In this document: positions 4,254 through 45,492 of the stretch, piece by piece
How positions within the stretch are numbered: position 1 is the first letter of the stretch
Layout of the letters: each line of letters starts with the position of its first letter
Origin: Ochrovirga pacifica
GTDB lineage: Bacteria > Bacteroidota > Bacteroidia > Flavobacteriales > Flavobacteriaceae
DNA: 62,140 nt
Direction of reading: 5' to 3'
Assembly: GCF_000220525.1 (NCBI RefSeq)
Contig: NZ_AFPK01000070.1
Coordinates: 1 to 62,140 of the forward strand
Made by a program: the position numbers and the translations under genes
Notes under the pieces: model-generated
Told to the model about the DNA's origin: nothing
Database searches by the model: none
The model's input: only the letters and a program-made list of their open reading frames with translations

Positions 4254-4610
4254 GATCGATGGTCGGTTTTCGATGTTCGATTGTCGATGATCGGTGATCG
4301 ATTGTCGATGTTCGATGTTCGATTGTCGATGTTCGGGGGACGATGTTCGGTGATCGGTAATCGATGATCGGTGATCGATTGTCGATGTTCGATGTTCGAT
4401 TGTCGATGTTCGGGGGACGATGTTCGGTGATCGGTAATCGATGATCGGTGGTCGATTTTCGGGGGACGATATTCGATGTTCGATTGTCGATGTTCGGGGG
4501 ACGATATTCGATGTTCGAGATTCGATATTCGATGGTCGATGTTCGGTGATCGATGGTCGATGGGCGGTGATCGATGGTCGGTGATCGATGTTCGATGGTC
4601 GATGGTCGGT
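4254..4610 (+). repeat. Heptanucleotide array 1 (about 51 units)
   Basis: A TCG core recurs about every 7 bp (units such as ttcgatg, gtcgatg, atcggtg, ttcgggg). The dialect here is rich in atcggtg units. A block of 77 bp (11 units) starting at 4284 is repeated in tandem at 4361, with a partial third copy at 4438. The array begins 11 bp upstream of the phe promoter and contains no gene. The rest of the gap, 4611-4727, holds nothing I can recognise. Confidence 0.95.
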
Positions 4611-4727
4611 TTTTGAAGTTTAAGAATATTGAAAATTAAATCTCCTCCATTAACTATCTATACACAGGATACATGTAGGCTTGATCAACGTTATGTGTCT
4701 GATACTTTTTTATTGAATCTATAACAT

Positions 4728-4757
4728 AAAAAAACTCCTTGATTTCTCAAGGAGTTT
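4728..4757 (-). terminator. Intrinsic terminator after tRNA-Thr
   Basis: On the minus strand AAACTCCTTGA, a short loop and TCAAGGAGTTT, followed by seven T, form a strong hairpin just 2 nt after the tRNA-Thr 3' end. Confidence 0.85.
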
Positions 4758-4759
4758 TG

Positions 4760-4833
4760 AGCCGATAATAGGACTCGAACCTACGACCTGCTGATTACAA
4801 ATCAGCTGCTCTAGCCAGCTGAGCTATATCGGC
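4760..4833 (-). tRNA. tRNA-Thr (anticodon TGT)
   Basis: The acceptor stem GCCGATA/TATCGGC closes the cloverleaf. The anticodon stem GCTGA/TCAGC holds the loop TTTGTAA, giving anticodon TGT. The T-loop is TTCGAGT. It is 74 nt, with no encoded CCA. It sits between heptanucleotide arrays 1 and 2 and has its own promoter and terminator. Confidence 0.97.
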
Positions 4834-4843
4834 ATAGCGGGTG

Positions 4844-4874
4844 CAAATATAGTTTCTTTTTGTAATCTGACAAT
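4844..4874 (-). promoter_or_regulatory. Promoter of tRNA-Thr
   Basis: The minus strand has ATTG, 19 nt, then TATATTTG, which fits the Bacteroidota consensus with one mismatch in the -33 box. The -7 box is followed by CACCCGCTA, a string also found after the -7 box of the tRNA-Val genes and, slightly changed, the tRNA-Ser gene. Confidence 0.7.
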
Positions 4875-4892
4875 GTTTTTTTTATTTTTTTA

Positions 4893-42773: not shown

Positions 42774-43724
42774 TTATAGTTTCACTTCTTTAAAATTCTC
42801 TATATTTTCTAAAAACCATTGATAGGTTTTTTCAATTCCTTCTTGCAACTCAACCTGATGTTTCCATCCCAAAGCATGCATTTTACTGATATCCATTAAT
42901 TTTCTTGGAGTACCGTCAGGTTTACTACTATCCCAAATAATTTCTCCAGTATGCCCTACTGCTTTCTGAATGGTTTCTGCCAACTCTTTTATGGTTAAAT
43001 CAACACCTGTTCCTACATTGTATAAGTATTCTGGCAATACATTTTCTAAGGCAAAAATAACCGATCTTGCCATGTCGTCTACAAACAAAAATTCTCTCAT
43101 CGGTGTTCCACTTCCCCATAAAGTTACAGGTGTATGTCCATTTTCTTTCGCTTCGTGAAACTTACGAATCATTGCTGGCAGCACGTGAGATGTTTTTAAA
43201 TCAAAATTGTCATGTGTTCCATACAAGTTCGTAGGCATTAAACTTACAAAATCTTTTCCATATTGCTTTCTAATTGCCTGACATGCTTTCACTCCCGTTA
43301 TTTTTGCAATGGCATACCACTCATTTGTTGGCTCTAAAGAATCTGTTAACAAATGTTCTTCTTTTAAAGGTTGTGGAGCAAATTTTGGATAAATACACGA
43401 ACTACCTAAGAAGATAAATTTTTGCACATCGTATTTATTGGCTGCATCTATCAAATTGTTTTGAATCTGCATGTTTTCCATGATGAATTGGTAAGGATAG
43501 TCGTTGTTTGCCAAAATCCCTCCTACTCTTGCTGCAGCATCAATGACTACTTCTGGCTTTTCTTCTTTAAAAAAAGCTTCTACGTCTTGTTGAGAACGTA
43601 AGTCTAATTCTGCACTTCTTTTTCCAATTAAATTGGTGTATCCTTCTTGCTCTAGGATTCTCCAAACTGCACCTCCTACCATTCCTCGGTGCCCTGCGAT
43701 GTATATTTTAGCTTCTTTGTTCAT
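42774..43724 (-). CDS. fcl: GDP-L-fucose synthase
   Basis: The NADPH-dependent epimerase/reductase completes GDP-L-fucose synthesis after Gmd. The 316 residues start with KIYIAGHRGMVGGAVWRIL. They have FLGSSCIYPKFAPQP, NEWYAIAKITG (catalytic Tyr/Lys) and MPTNLYGTHDNFD, diagnostic for Fcl/WcaG. The product probably feeds the HxRRGD protein at 19035. It starts 7 nt after manA. Confidence 0.97.
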   Translation of the reverse strand: MNKEAKIYIAGHRGMVGGAVWRILEQEGYTNLIGKRSAELDLRSQQDVEAFFKEEKPEVVIDAAARVGGILANNDYPYQFIMENMQIQNNLIDAANKYDVQKFIFLGSSCIYPKFAPQPLKEEHLLTDSLEPTNEWYAIAKITGVKACQAIRKQYGKDFVSLMPTNLYGTHDNFDLKTSHVLPAMIRKFHEAKENGHTPVTLWGSGTPMREFLFVDDMARSVIFALENVLPEYLYNVGTGVDLTIKELAETIQKAVGHTGEIIWDSSKPDGTPRKLMDISKMHALGWKHQVELQEGIEKTYQWFLENIENFKEVKL

Positions 43725-43731
43725 GTCTTTT

Positions 43732-44703
43732 TTATTTAATATAAACCTCTAATAATTCTGCTTCTTTGGCTTTGATCGCTACTTGCTTTTGATTCGCTGG
43801 AATCAAAATAGTTTCCCCTTTTTTTATGTTTTCAGAAATTTGCCCTGTAGACACCTCTGCTTCTCCTTCTACACACATATAAATTACAAAAGAATCTATT
43901 TCCTTGTATTCTTTATTTACCTGACCTTCTACTTTGACATAGTTGGTGGTAAAATATTGACATGAGGCAATATTAGAACTTTTGTTAGTTATTTTGTCGT
44001 ATTTGCACTTAAAATCTTTGTTAAATTTATAGTCAATTGCATCCAAAGCTAACTCTGTGTGCAGTTCTCTAGAGTTTCCTTCGCTGTCTACACGATCCCA
44101 ATCATAAATACGATAGGTAATGTCCGAAGTTTGTTGAATCTCTGCAATCAAACAACCTGCACCAATAGCATGTACCAACCCTTCCTTGATAAAAAAACTA
44201 TCCCCTTTGCTTACTTCTTCAAAGTTTAAGATGTCTAAAATTTTTCCTGAATTCAAAGCTTCTAAGTAAGACTCTTTGTCTAAATCTTTGGTAAAACCAA
44301 CATTCAACTTAGAATCTGCATCCGCATCCATTACATACCACATTTCTGTTTTCCCAAAAGAATTGTGTCGTTCTTTAGCTAACTGATCATTTGGATGCAA
44401 TTGAATGGATAGATTTTCCTTTGCATCAATAAATTTGATTAACAATGGAAATTTTTCTCCAAATTCTTGGTAAATTTTCTCTCCTACCAAATCTCCTTTG
44501 TGTTCTTTGATAATTTCTGTCAAGCTTTTTCCAGCCATTGTTCCATTGGCAACAATCGATATGTCTCCTGGAACATTAGATATCTCCCAGCTTTCTCCTG
44601 TAGTTTCACTTTCTGCTTGTTTGTTGAATAAGTTTTTCAACTTGGTTCCTCCCCAGATTTTATCTTTTAAGATGGGAGCAAATTTGATTGGATAATTGAT
44701 CAT
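43732..44703 (-). CDS. manA: Mannose-6-phosphate isomerase, class I
   Basis: The zinc cupin isomerase links fructose 6-phosphate to mannose 6-phosphate and so feeds GDP-mannose. The 323 residues open with APILKDKIWGGTKLKNLF. They have IQLHPNDQLAKE (zinc ligands), KTEMWYVMDADADS, FIKEGLVHAIGAGCLIAEIQ and YRIYDWDR. Array 5 begins 16 nt upstream of its start codon, which leaves no room for a normal promoter, so it is probably cotranscribed through the array. Confidence 0.95.
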   Translation of the reverse strand: MINYPIKFAPILKDKIWGGTKLKNLFNKQAESETTGESWEISNVPGDISIVANGTMAGKSLTEIIKEHKGDLVGEKIYQEFGEKFPLLIKFIDAKENLSIQLHPNDQLAKERHNSFGKTEMWYVMDADADSKLNVGFTKDLDKESYLEALNSGKILDILNFEEVSKGDSFFIKEGLVHAIGAGCLIAEIQQTSDITYRIYDWDRVDSEGNSRELHTELALDAIDYKFNKDFKCKYDKITNKSSNIASCQYFTTNYVKVEGQVNKEYKEIDSFVIYMCVEGEAEVSTGQISENIKKGETILIPANQKQVAIKAKEAELLEVYIK

Positions 44704-44718
44704 TTTGGTTCTTTGTTT

Positions 44719-44893
44719 TTCGATGGTCGGTTTTCGGTTTTCGATTCTCGGTGTTCGATGGTCGATGTTCGGTGTTCGATGTTCGATGTTCGATGTTCGA
44801 TGTTCGATGTTCGATGTTCGGTTTTCGGTTTTCGATTCTCGGTGTTCGATGGTCGATGGTCGATGGTCGGTTTTCGGTTTTCGGTTTTCGGTT
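44719..44893 (+). repeat. Heptanucleotide array 5 (25 units)
   Basis: Same family and orientation as the others, with runs of ttcgatg and ttttcgg. It fills the whole space between the manA start and the stop codon of the four-helix-bundle gene, touching that stop. Three overlapping plus-strand frames here (44696-45014) encode only repeated heptapeptides. Confidence 0.95.
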
Positions 44894-45238
44894 TTATTTT
44901 AATGATTTAATCAATTTATGTAACATCATTTTTATTCTTATACAAACCTCGTACAATTCTTCGTATTCAGAAATTGAAATATATTTTAAATCTTTAGCCA
45001 AAAACAAATGGTAATTGGTTTCTTCTAATGAACCTTTGGCAATGTACAAAAACTGTATGTACTCTTTTTTATATTGTCGTTCTTGACCTTCCAAAATATT
45101 TGTTGGCACACTACTCGCACTTCTTCTTATTTGACTTATCAAACCATAGGTTTCTGTATTGGGAAATGTAGACGAAACCTGATAAACTTTCAACGTTAAT
45201 TGATGTGCCAGCTTCCACACTTCTAATTTAGATTCCAT
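44894..45238 (-). CDS. Four-helix-bundle protein (23S rRNA intervening-sequence family)
   Basis: A 114-residue all-helical protein with LEVWKLAHQLTLKVYQVSST, TYGLISQIRRSASSVPTNIL, EGQERQYKKEYIQFLYIAKG and SLEETNYHLFLAKDL. This is the signature pattern of the S23/IVS four-helix-bundle family, whose cellular role is not established. The family shares its fold with the Avd accessory protein of diversity-generating retroelements, but no reverse transcriptase is present here. The gene is wedged between arrays 5 and 6, with 0 and 13 bp to spare, inside a nucleotide-sugar operon where it has no obvious metabolic job. Confidence 0.9.
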   Translation of the reverse strand: MESKLEVWKLAHQLTLKVYQVSSTFPNTETYGLISQIRRSASSVPTNILEGQERQYKKEYIQFLYIAKGSLEETNYHLFLAKDLKYISISEYEELYEVCIRIKMMLHKLIKSLK

Positions 45239-45251
45239 TGTCCTTTGTCAG

Positions 45252-45492
45252 TTTTCAATGTTCGATTCTCGGTGTTCGATGGTCGATGGTCGATTCTCGG
45301 TGTTCGATGGTCGATGGTCGATTCTCGGTGTTCGTTGTTCGATGGTTGATGGTCGGTATTCGATTCTCGGTGTTCGATTCTCGGTGTTCGATGGTCGATG
45401 GTCGATGGTCGATTCTCGGTGTTCGATGGTCGATGGTCGATTCTCGGTGTTCGATGATCGATTCTCGATGTTCGGTTGTCGGTTTTCGATGA
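45252..45492 (+). repeat. Heptanucleotide array 6 (about 34 units)
   Basis: The string gattctc starts at 45264, 45292, 45320, 45362, 45376, 45411, 45439 and 45460. All spacings are multiples of 7 (28, 28, 42, 14, 35, 28, 21). The dominant higher-order unit is 28 bp. The heptamer phase is kept over about 240 bp. It lies between the ugd stop and the start of the four-helix-bundle gene. Confidence 0.95.

Follow-up and report, generated by a model that had tools for sequence, protein, structure and literature searches.

Six tandem arrays of heptamers, and an S23 gene enclosed by two of them, are described here from a polysaccharide locus of Ochrovirga pacifica (Flavobacteriaceae). They lie on contig NZ_AFPK01000070.1, whose whole 62,140-nucleotide stretch was analysed and is called the window. 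The closest described system is the intervening sequence (IVS) of Coxiella, in which an S23p open reading frame (ORF) sits inside the 23S rRNA gene, with two to three tandem heptamers (GACAGAT) and a degenerate one directly 5', their number varying between strains (Warrier et al. 2016, PMC4990558). The same paper describes complementary termini for the IVS, reports S23p as probably not made and expendable, and states that S23 proteins had no known function in 2016. TAACTGA direct repeats are also intergenic heptamer arrays, long in some Bacteroidetes, with a possible role in gene rearrangement (MacGregor 2015, PMC4679880). That study suggests that the mobile element might be a repeat-binding protein itself, and S23 does not occur in its main text. 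A link between S23 genes outside rRNA and heptamer arrays was not found in the titles and abstracts listed by searches of the open-licence PMC literature, nor in the sections consulted of these two papers.

The window resembles the Coxiella IVS, as described there, in having an S23 ORF with heptamers, and complementary termini are also the tendency at the Bacteroidota S23 loci examined here. It differs in that its S23 gene lies between protein genes (ugd and pmi) and not inside an rRNA gene, is under purifying selection, and is accompanied by long arrays that are direct, not inverted. The arrays have no Rfam match over the gathering score, the only such matches in the window being six tRNAs. 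Nor is their unit that of the TAACTGA repeats: whereas the latter are described as one fixed heptamer, the window has a CGA core with drifting positions. The short tandemly repeated repetitive (STRR) sequences of heterocystous cyanobacteria are likewise heptanucleotide tandem repeats between genes, and we know of no S23 link for them. Avd, which belongs to diversity-generating retroelements, is a distant S23 relative; the window protein falls far below both Avd family cut-offs (NF033474, 24.7 bits against 80; bAvd PF22296, 24.1 bits against 40).

The best reading places the arrays in an S23 cassette system related to the known S23/IVS elements. More specifically, we judge it an even call that the six arrays, numbered A1 to A6, are the footprint of a repeat-flanked S23 cassette relocating among the gaps of the polysaccharide locus, with A5 and A6 flanking the S23 gene and the other four likely being S23-less copies of such flanks.

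Arrays and S23 gene in the window

Autocorrelation at lag 7 over the whole window yields six runs and no others, a result matched by Tandem Repeats Finder. All six are intergenic and have one common direction, with TCG recurring every 7 bp on the forward strand. The first-pass annotation had reported these six arrays, with this spacing, direction and placement, and none in 0-4.2 kb or 46-62 kb, and on these points it is borne out.

It missed the gene that A5 (44719-44893) and A6 (45252-45492) enclose. This S23 gene (44894-45238, 114 aa; also called 23S_rRNA_IVP or four helix bundle protein) lies between ugd (UDP-glucose dehydrogenase type, 45519-46844) and pmi (mannose-6-phosphate isomerase, 43732-44703); these features, like all other window features given coordinates below unless stated, are on the minus strand, and the neighbouring protein genes were assigned by Pfam. 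The S23 protein exceeds the family cut-offs of PF05635 (136 bits against 33.8) and TIGR02436 ('four helix bundle protein'; 132.7 bits against 24). A5 is directly 3' of the gene, starting at its stop codon and ending 15 bases before the pmi start codon, and A6 is directly 5', 13 bases from the S23 start codon. Further along, A4 (42633-42688) is a solo array of 8 heptamers in the gap between fcl (GDP-fucose synthase type, 42774-43724) and gmd (GDP-mannose 4,6-dehydratase, 41476-42603).

On the gene strand, the unit is CGAHMAY (C-G-A-H-M-A-Y; 185 heptamers), with C at position 1 in 170, G at position 2 in 170, and A at positions 3 and 6 in 162 each; position 4 is G in 13. In the 3,384,629-base assembly, the pattern (TCGNNNN)x6 is matched at 87 forward and 4 reverse sites, all on the contig that forms the window, and the reverse ones (beginning at 4502, 4895, 4902 and 44777) fall inside the same arrays. 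The same pattern read backwards, used as a control, has no match in the assembly. A chance origin of the arrays was rejected on that control, and a genome-wide satellite of the TCG dialect on the confinement of its matches to one contig. The idea that the window arrays encode protein was also rejected, as their frames are open merely because the unit lacks a stop. The whole-genome scan proposed as a check on the first-pass annotation thus gave no even spread of this dialect.

The claim that the arrays are confined to the polysaccharide locus holds for the TCG dialect and fails for period-7 arrays in general. Four others were found in 20 further stretches of the same genome (359,523 bases; chosen, not random, with the contigs bearing S23 genes included and two short stretches consisting entirely of N), where lags 8, 9 and 14 gave one array each and the other lags from 4 to 14 none. 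Two of the four lie within 0.8 kb of an S23 gene. Palindromic heptamer/octamer arrays occur in this genome at L043 (16839-18764) and L044 (2688-2804), two of them less than 0.8 kb from an S23 gene that, by eye, adjoins a hisA-like gene. The genome has six S23 genes in all; of the five outside the window, two (L001 and L006) have a flagged period-7 window in their flanks, and the locus of another (L003) starts at a contig end.

The S23 protein itself is kept by purifying selection. Among 12 S23 genes, the ratio of nonsynonymous to synonymous substitution (dN/dS) has a median of 0.085, calculated from the 44 of 66 pairs whose dS was usable, that of the other pairs being saturated or undefined.

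S23 genes and their flanks in other genomes

A scan of GTDB genomes with the window S23 returned 20 loci, 12 of them close relatives at 64-82% identity (Polaribacter, Wenyingzhuangia, Flavobacterium and metagenome-assembled genomes, MAGs). Together with the window, these make 13 loci, in 12 of which 10 to 72 CG pairs at 7-base spacing lie within 300 bases of S23. The remaining one (L069), where S23 is frame-broken, has 5. CG pairs at six other spacings together never exceed 4 per locus, and at least 6 CG pairs at 7-base spacing occur in just 3 of 58 S23 loci drawn generally from the family and phylum. The count for one locus (L066, a Chitinophaga MAG) comes from its one readable side. At least one nucleotide-sugar or polysaccharide neighbour (nucleotide-sugar dehydrogenase, gmd, fcl, manC, pmi, wecA type or Gfo/Idh type) accompanies 11 of the 12 close relatives, the exception being L066, where the single neighbour read, on the opposite strand, encodes a PSCyt1-type protein. 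As a separate observation, L069 (Flavobacterium yafengii) has poor arrays and an S23 frame that is broken beyond its 64th codon.

The association extends beyond this group. PF05635 is present in 45 of the 60 genomes sampled from the family and in 75 of 99 from the phylum, counts that include the window's own genome. Across the 58 general loci, autocorrelation in the 300 bases nearest S23 exceeds that farther out by 0.041 at lag 7, 0.025 at lag 14, and 0.020 at lags 21 and 8, with no other lag up to 20 above 0.011. A strong period-7 window within 260 bases on at least one side is found at 23 of the 58 S23 loci against 1 of 30 ParE controls from the phylum's genomes (Fisher P 1.3e-4), and a window of period 7 or 8 at 31 against 1; at the other 27 S23 loci neither period gives a strong window. 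The flanks of ParE genes often contain the antitoxin gene, which makes this control imperfect. As a second control, the gap before gmd in relatives with fcl downstream was flagged in 1 of 27 cases, at a laxer threshold.

The flanks of S23 genes also tend to pair with one another. Upstream arms pair with their own downstream arm at a mean of -31.5 kcal/mol, compared with -22.1 for the arms of other loci (57 of the 58 loci), and the own partner is the best in 14 of the 57 and within the best tenth in 27. In seven distant S23 loci from other groups, matched arms average -68.3 and mismatched arms -46.8, with the own partner best in 4 of 7. Inverted heptamer arms are visible by eye in five loci (L071-L074 and L076), while at L070 no repeats were seen by eye beside S23. 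Of the 53 loci that have a frame on each side of S23, 49 place it in a run of co-oriented genes, with median gaps of 72 and 71 bases from the profile match. Two side observations concern these flanks. In a Bacteroidales MAG (L068), S23 is flanked by repeats of period 9 (CAAAGGAAA and kin), not 7, and among the Bacteroidota loci L077-L134 S23 often stands, by eye, directly before an acetyl-CoA acyltransferase-like gene, with CTCAATA/TATTGAG inverted arms in a recurrent gap.

Placement genome-wide was examined in 11 relatives with the pattern (HCGANNN)x6. All matches lie beside a window-type S23 in four of them (G244, 2 of 2; G245, 27 of 27; G246, 3 of 3; G249, 1 of 1). In G241, all 14 lie within about 20 kb of S23, none adjoining it, and in G242 41 of 49 lie within about 22 kb. 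G243 has 8 matches.

The same gaps in relatives

Comparison of individual gaps shows the same sites in different states. The fcl-gmd gap holds a solo array in the window (A4), W. (Wenyingzhuangia) heitensis and P. (Polaribacter) glomeratus, and array, S23 and array in W. gilva, Polaribacter DS7-9 and a pond MAG. In relative G219 it is empty, at 38 bases; in G236 it contains a different S23 (47% identical) with GTGA/TCAC arms; and in W. aestuarii it contains arrays plus an extra 302-aa frame without a Pfam match. The ugd-pmi gap holds S23 and arrays in the window and W. aestuarii. Its counterpart in W. heitensis has a solo array of six units, with neither S23 nor pmi there, and the W. gilva ugd-pmi gap has no S23. 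In P. glomeratus, S23 lies between ugd2 and a Gfo/Idh gene. A side observation concerns W. gilva (G240; L210, L206), whose polysaccharide locus also contains many period-7 arrays of TGAGTGG type, a second dialect beside the CG one.

In the S23 tree, the W. gilva copy from the fcl-gmd gap and the W. aestuarii copy from the ugd-pmi gap are sisters (91% identity, support 0.81). Two Polaribacter copies in different gaps are likewise sisters (90%, 0.91), and copies from fcl-gmd gaps do not cluster. Relatedness among the S23 genes thus tracks the host rather than the gap.

Arrays are also found within a gene. The gmd of W. aestuarii (L061, frame 8749-9987) contains an in-frame CG heptamer array at 9654-9789, which adds about 37 residues relative to the window gmd, rich in N, E, T and S (NNENRTTNNE-like). 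Arrays can therefore arise in coding sequence as well.

A 20-kb module bounded by arrays

The three remaining arrays lie at the other side of the locus, where the order is wzc2, A3, a 20-kb segment from glf to wzc1, A2, tRNA-Thr, A1 and prephenate dehydratase. A3 (25898-26129, about 33 heptamers) is between wzc2 (chain-length/tyrosine kinase type, 26158-28527) and glf; A2 (4893-5173, about 40) follows a terminator-like hairpin, identified by eye, that ends wzc1; and A1 (4254-4610, about 51; autocorrelation and repeat finder) lies between tRNA-Thr(TGT) (4759-4833) and the leader of the prephenate dehydratase operon. The segment bounded by A2 and A3 (5243-25472) is a polysaccharide module.

This module was compared with three Wenyingzhuangia genomes in which the junction was read, the junction of P. 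glomeratus not being reached and G219 and G236 lying outside the comparison. W. aestuarii, W. heitensis and W. gilva each have a single wzc before tRNA-Thr, and wzc1, wza1 and glf were not found between wzc and tRNA-Thr in any of the three. In the A1 gap, W. aestuarii has CG arrays and W. gilva arrays of a different dialect; none was flagged in W. heitensis.

Array positions thus meet one gene-content breakpoint, as the check set for the first-pass annotation had asked. Both module ends are arrays of one direction, as predicted by its idea that same-direction repeats could support deletion, duplication or exchange of the modules between them. That idea is partly supported, by the tie of the repeats to one locus and by this one module. 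As there is a single module, gain and loss are not distinguished, and the arrays occupy the locus's longest gaps, the module evidence is of moderate weight.

How the arrays may have formed

The relocating-cassette reading starts from what is observed: S23 genes and arrays are associated, one gap occurs in occupied, solo and empty states, and sister S23 genes stand in different gaps. An array lies in frame in a relative's gmd, S23 is under selection, and A2 and A3 bound a module. Movement of S23 between gaps is the simplest reading of the gap pattern. The rest is inferred: how crossing-over would move the gene, which way each change went, and that the S23 protein would itself bind heptamers. 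Arrays would grow and drift through 7-base slippage. Since they all have one direction, crossing-over between the two arrays flanking S23 would excise the gene on a circle that keeps one array, and the other would stay behind as a solo array, which is what A4 resembles. The circle could then enter the locus again wherever a like-oriented array lies. Whole modules would be gained or lost by the same recombination step, as at A2 and A3.

Several points weigh against this reading. Several ancestral S23 copies followed by separate losses would yield the same gap pattern, and the module evidence, a single case, would fit loss of the module in the relatives too. S23 loci generally tend to inverted arms, whereas A5 and A6 form a same-direction pair, and within the CG group the pairing between own arms is no stronger than that between arms of different loci (-32.5 v -32.1). 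No excised circle or recombinase turned up, neither having been searched for. Units are common to several arrays, and the longest exact words shared between arrays (13-39 bases) are no longer than within-array shuffling of units yields. The statement that each array has its own dialect therefore stands only in part, and the longest shared words were dropped as proof of direct copying between arrays. The link to one locus also loosens in related genomes, some of which carry such arrays far from a window-type S23. In G239, 20 of 24 (HCGAN3)x6 matches are away from it and 4 beside it; in G248, arrays lie on many contigs, among the matches listed; G240 and G247 have no match in the genome scan; and in W. 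heitensis a lag-7 array adjoins S23, yet its 14 strict matches are 12-20 kb off. The backward-control pattern, itself a heptamer dialect, is found in 13 of the 60 relatives scanned, compared with 7 for the TCG pattern, and is frequent in G239 and G245. In this order, heptamer arrays are common and occur in many dialects, and some go with no S23.

A rival origin is as neutral satellites: slippage at 7 bases would fill long gaps in a locus under low constraint, and the tie to S23 would be indirect, S23 also tolerating such gaps. Period-7 arrays without an adjoining S23 exist in this genome and in relatives, and the six arrays sit in six of the window's longest gaps. Period 7 is nevertheless enriched beside S23, and neither at ParE nor before gmd; the own arms of S23 loci in general pair preferentially; and the array core follows the S23 subfamily. 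We regard neutral satellites as quite unlikely. It is very improbable that the heptamers are translation or transcription leader elements unrelated to S23, as has been proposed for TAACTGA repeats. The end of A5 close to the pmi start codon suits this idea, as do arrays in relatives that often stop just short of an ATG, but A1, A2 and A3 are not directly before a start codon, and the array inside the W. aestuarii gmd cannot be a leader.

A direct role for the protein is another candidate. The arrays would be binding platforms for S23: each protomer of a pentameric ring would recognise one heptamer by its core, on either nascent RNA or single-stranded DNA, and the protein would thereby control its own and the polysaccharide operons. 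TRAP on its NAG repeats is a working analogue of a ring that reads repeats. Consistent with this, S23 is under purifying selection, its relatives 2GSC and 2RLD were solved with five chains each, and the CGA strand is the S23 coding strand at S23-adjacent (HCGAN3)x6 sites, among the matches listed. S23 similarity also covaries with flank similarity (80 loci; Spearman 0.20, 0 of 500 permutations, against 0.05 for far flanks), and still does so without the CG group (0.14 against 0.05). This covariation is, however, confounded by shared gene neighbourhoods, and far flanks covary without the CG group too (0 of 300 permutations). CGT units are intermixed beside several S23 genes. A super-period of 35 nt (5 x 7), expected if RNA wraps once round a pentamer, was tried and is absent. 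A2 follows a terminator-like hairpin and A1 lies between a tRNA and a leader (by eye), so neither is in an obvious mRNA leader. As the explanation of the arrays this is unlikely, though the idea of a ring reading heptamers is also compatible with the cassette, and fits the selection on S23 and the link between core and subfamily.

A broader proposal joins the two: S23 genes would be the core of widespread operon-invading cassettes whose heptamer arms are read by an S23 ring, each subfamily having its own heptamer address, and in polysaccharide loci these addresses would serve as swap points for whole sugar modules. This is possible, and we hold it only tentatively.

Neighbouring features

Before prephenate dehydratase (4060-4240), a leader peptide, MKTINAFGFYFFFFFFSKKEGLLMC, is followed by a hairpin and a T-run, likely a phenylalanine attenuator. 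W. aestuarii has a similar leader. Two tRNA-Val genes stand in tandem at 49282-49451 (no strand assigned here).

Outlook

S23 proteins are common, and the period-7 signature gives a handle on their function. A link between S23 and heptamers would join the heptamer arrays reported separately in Bacteroidetes and Coxiella. In addition, an S23 cassette system would offer a route for surface-polysaccharide modules to change place.

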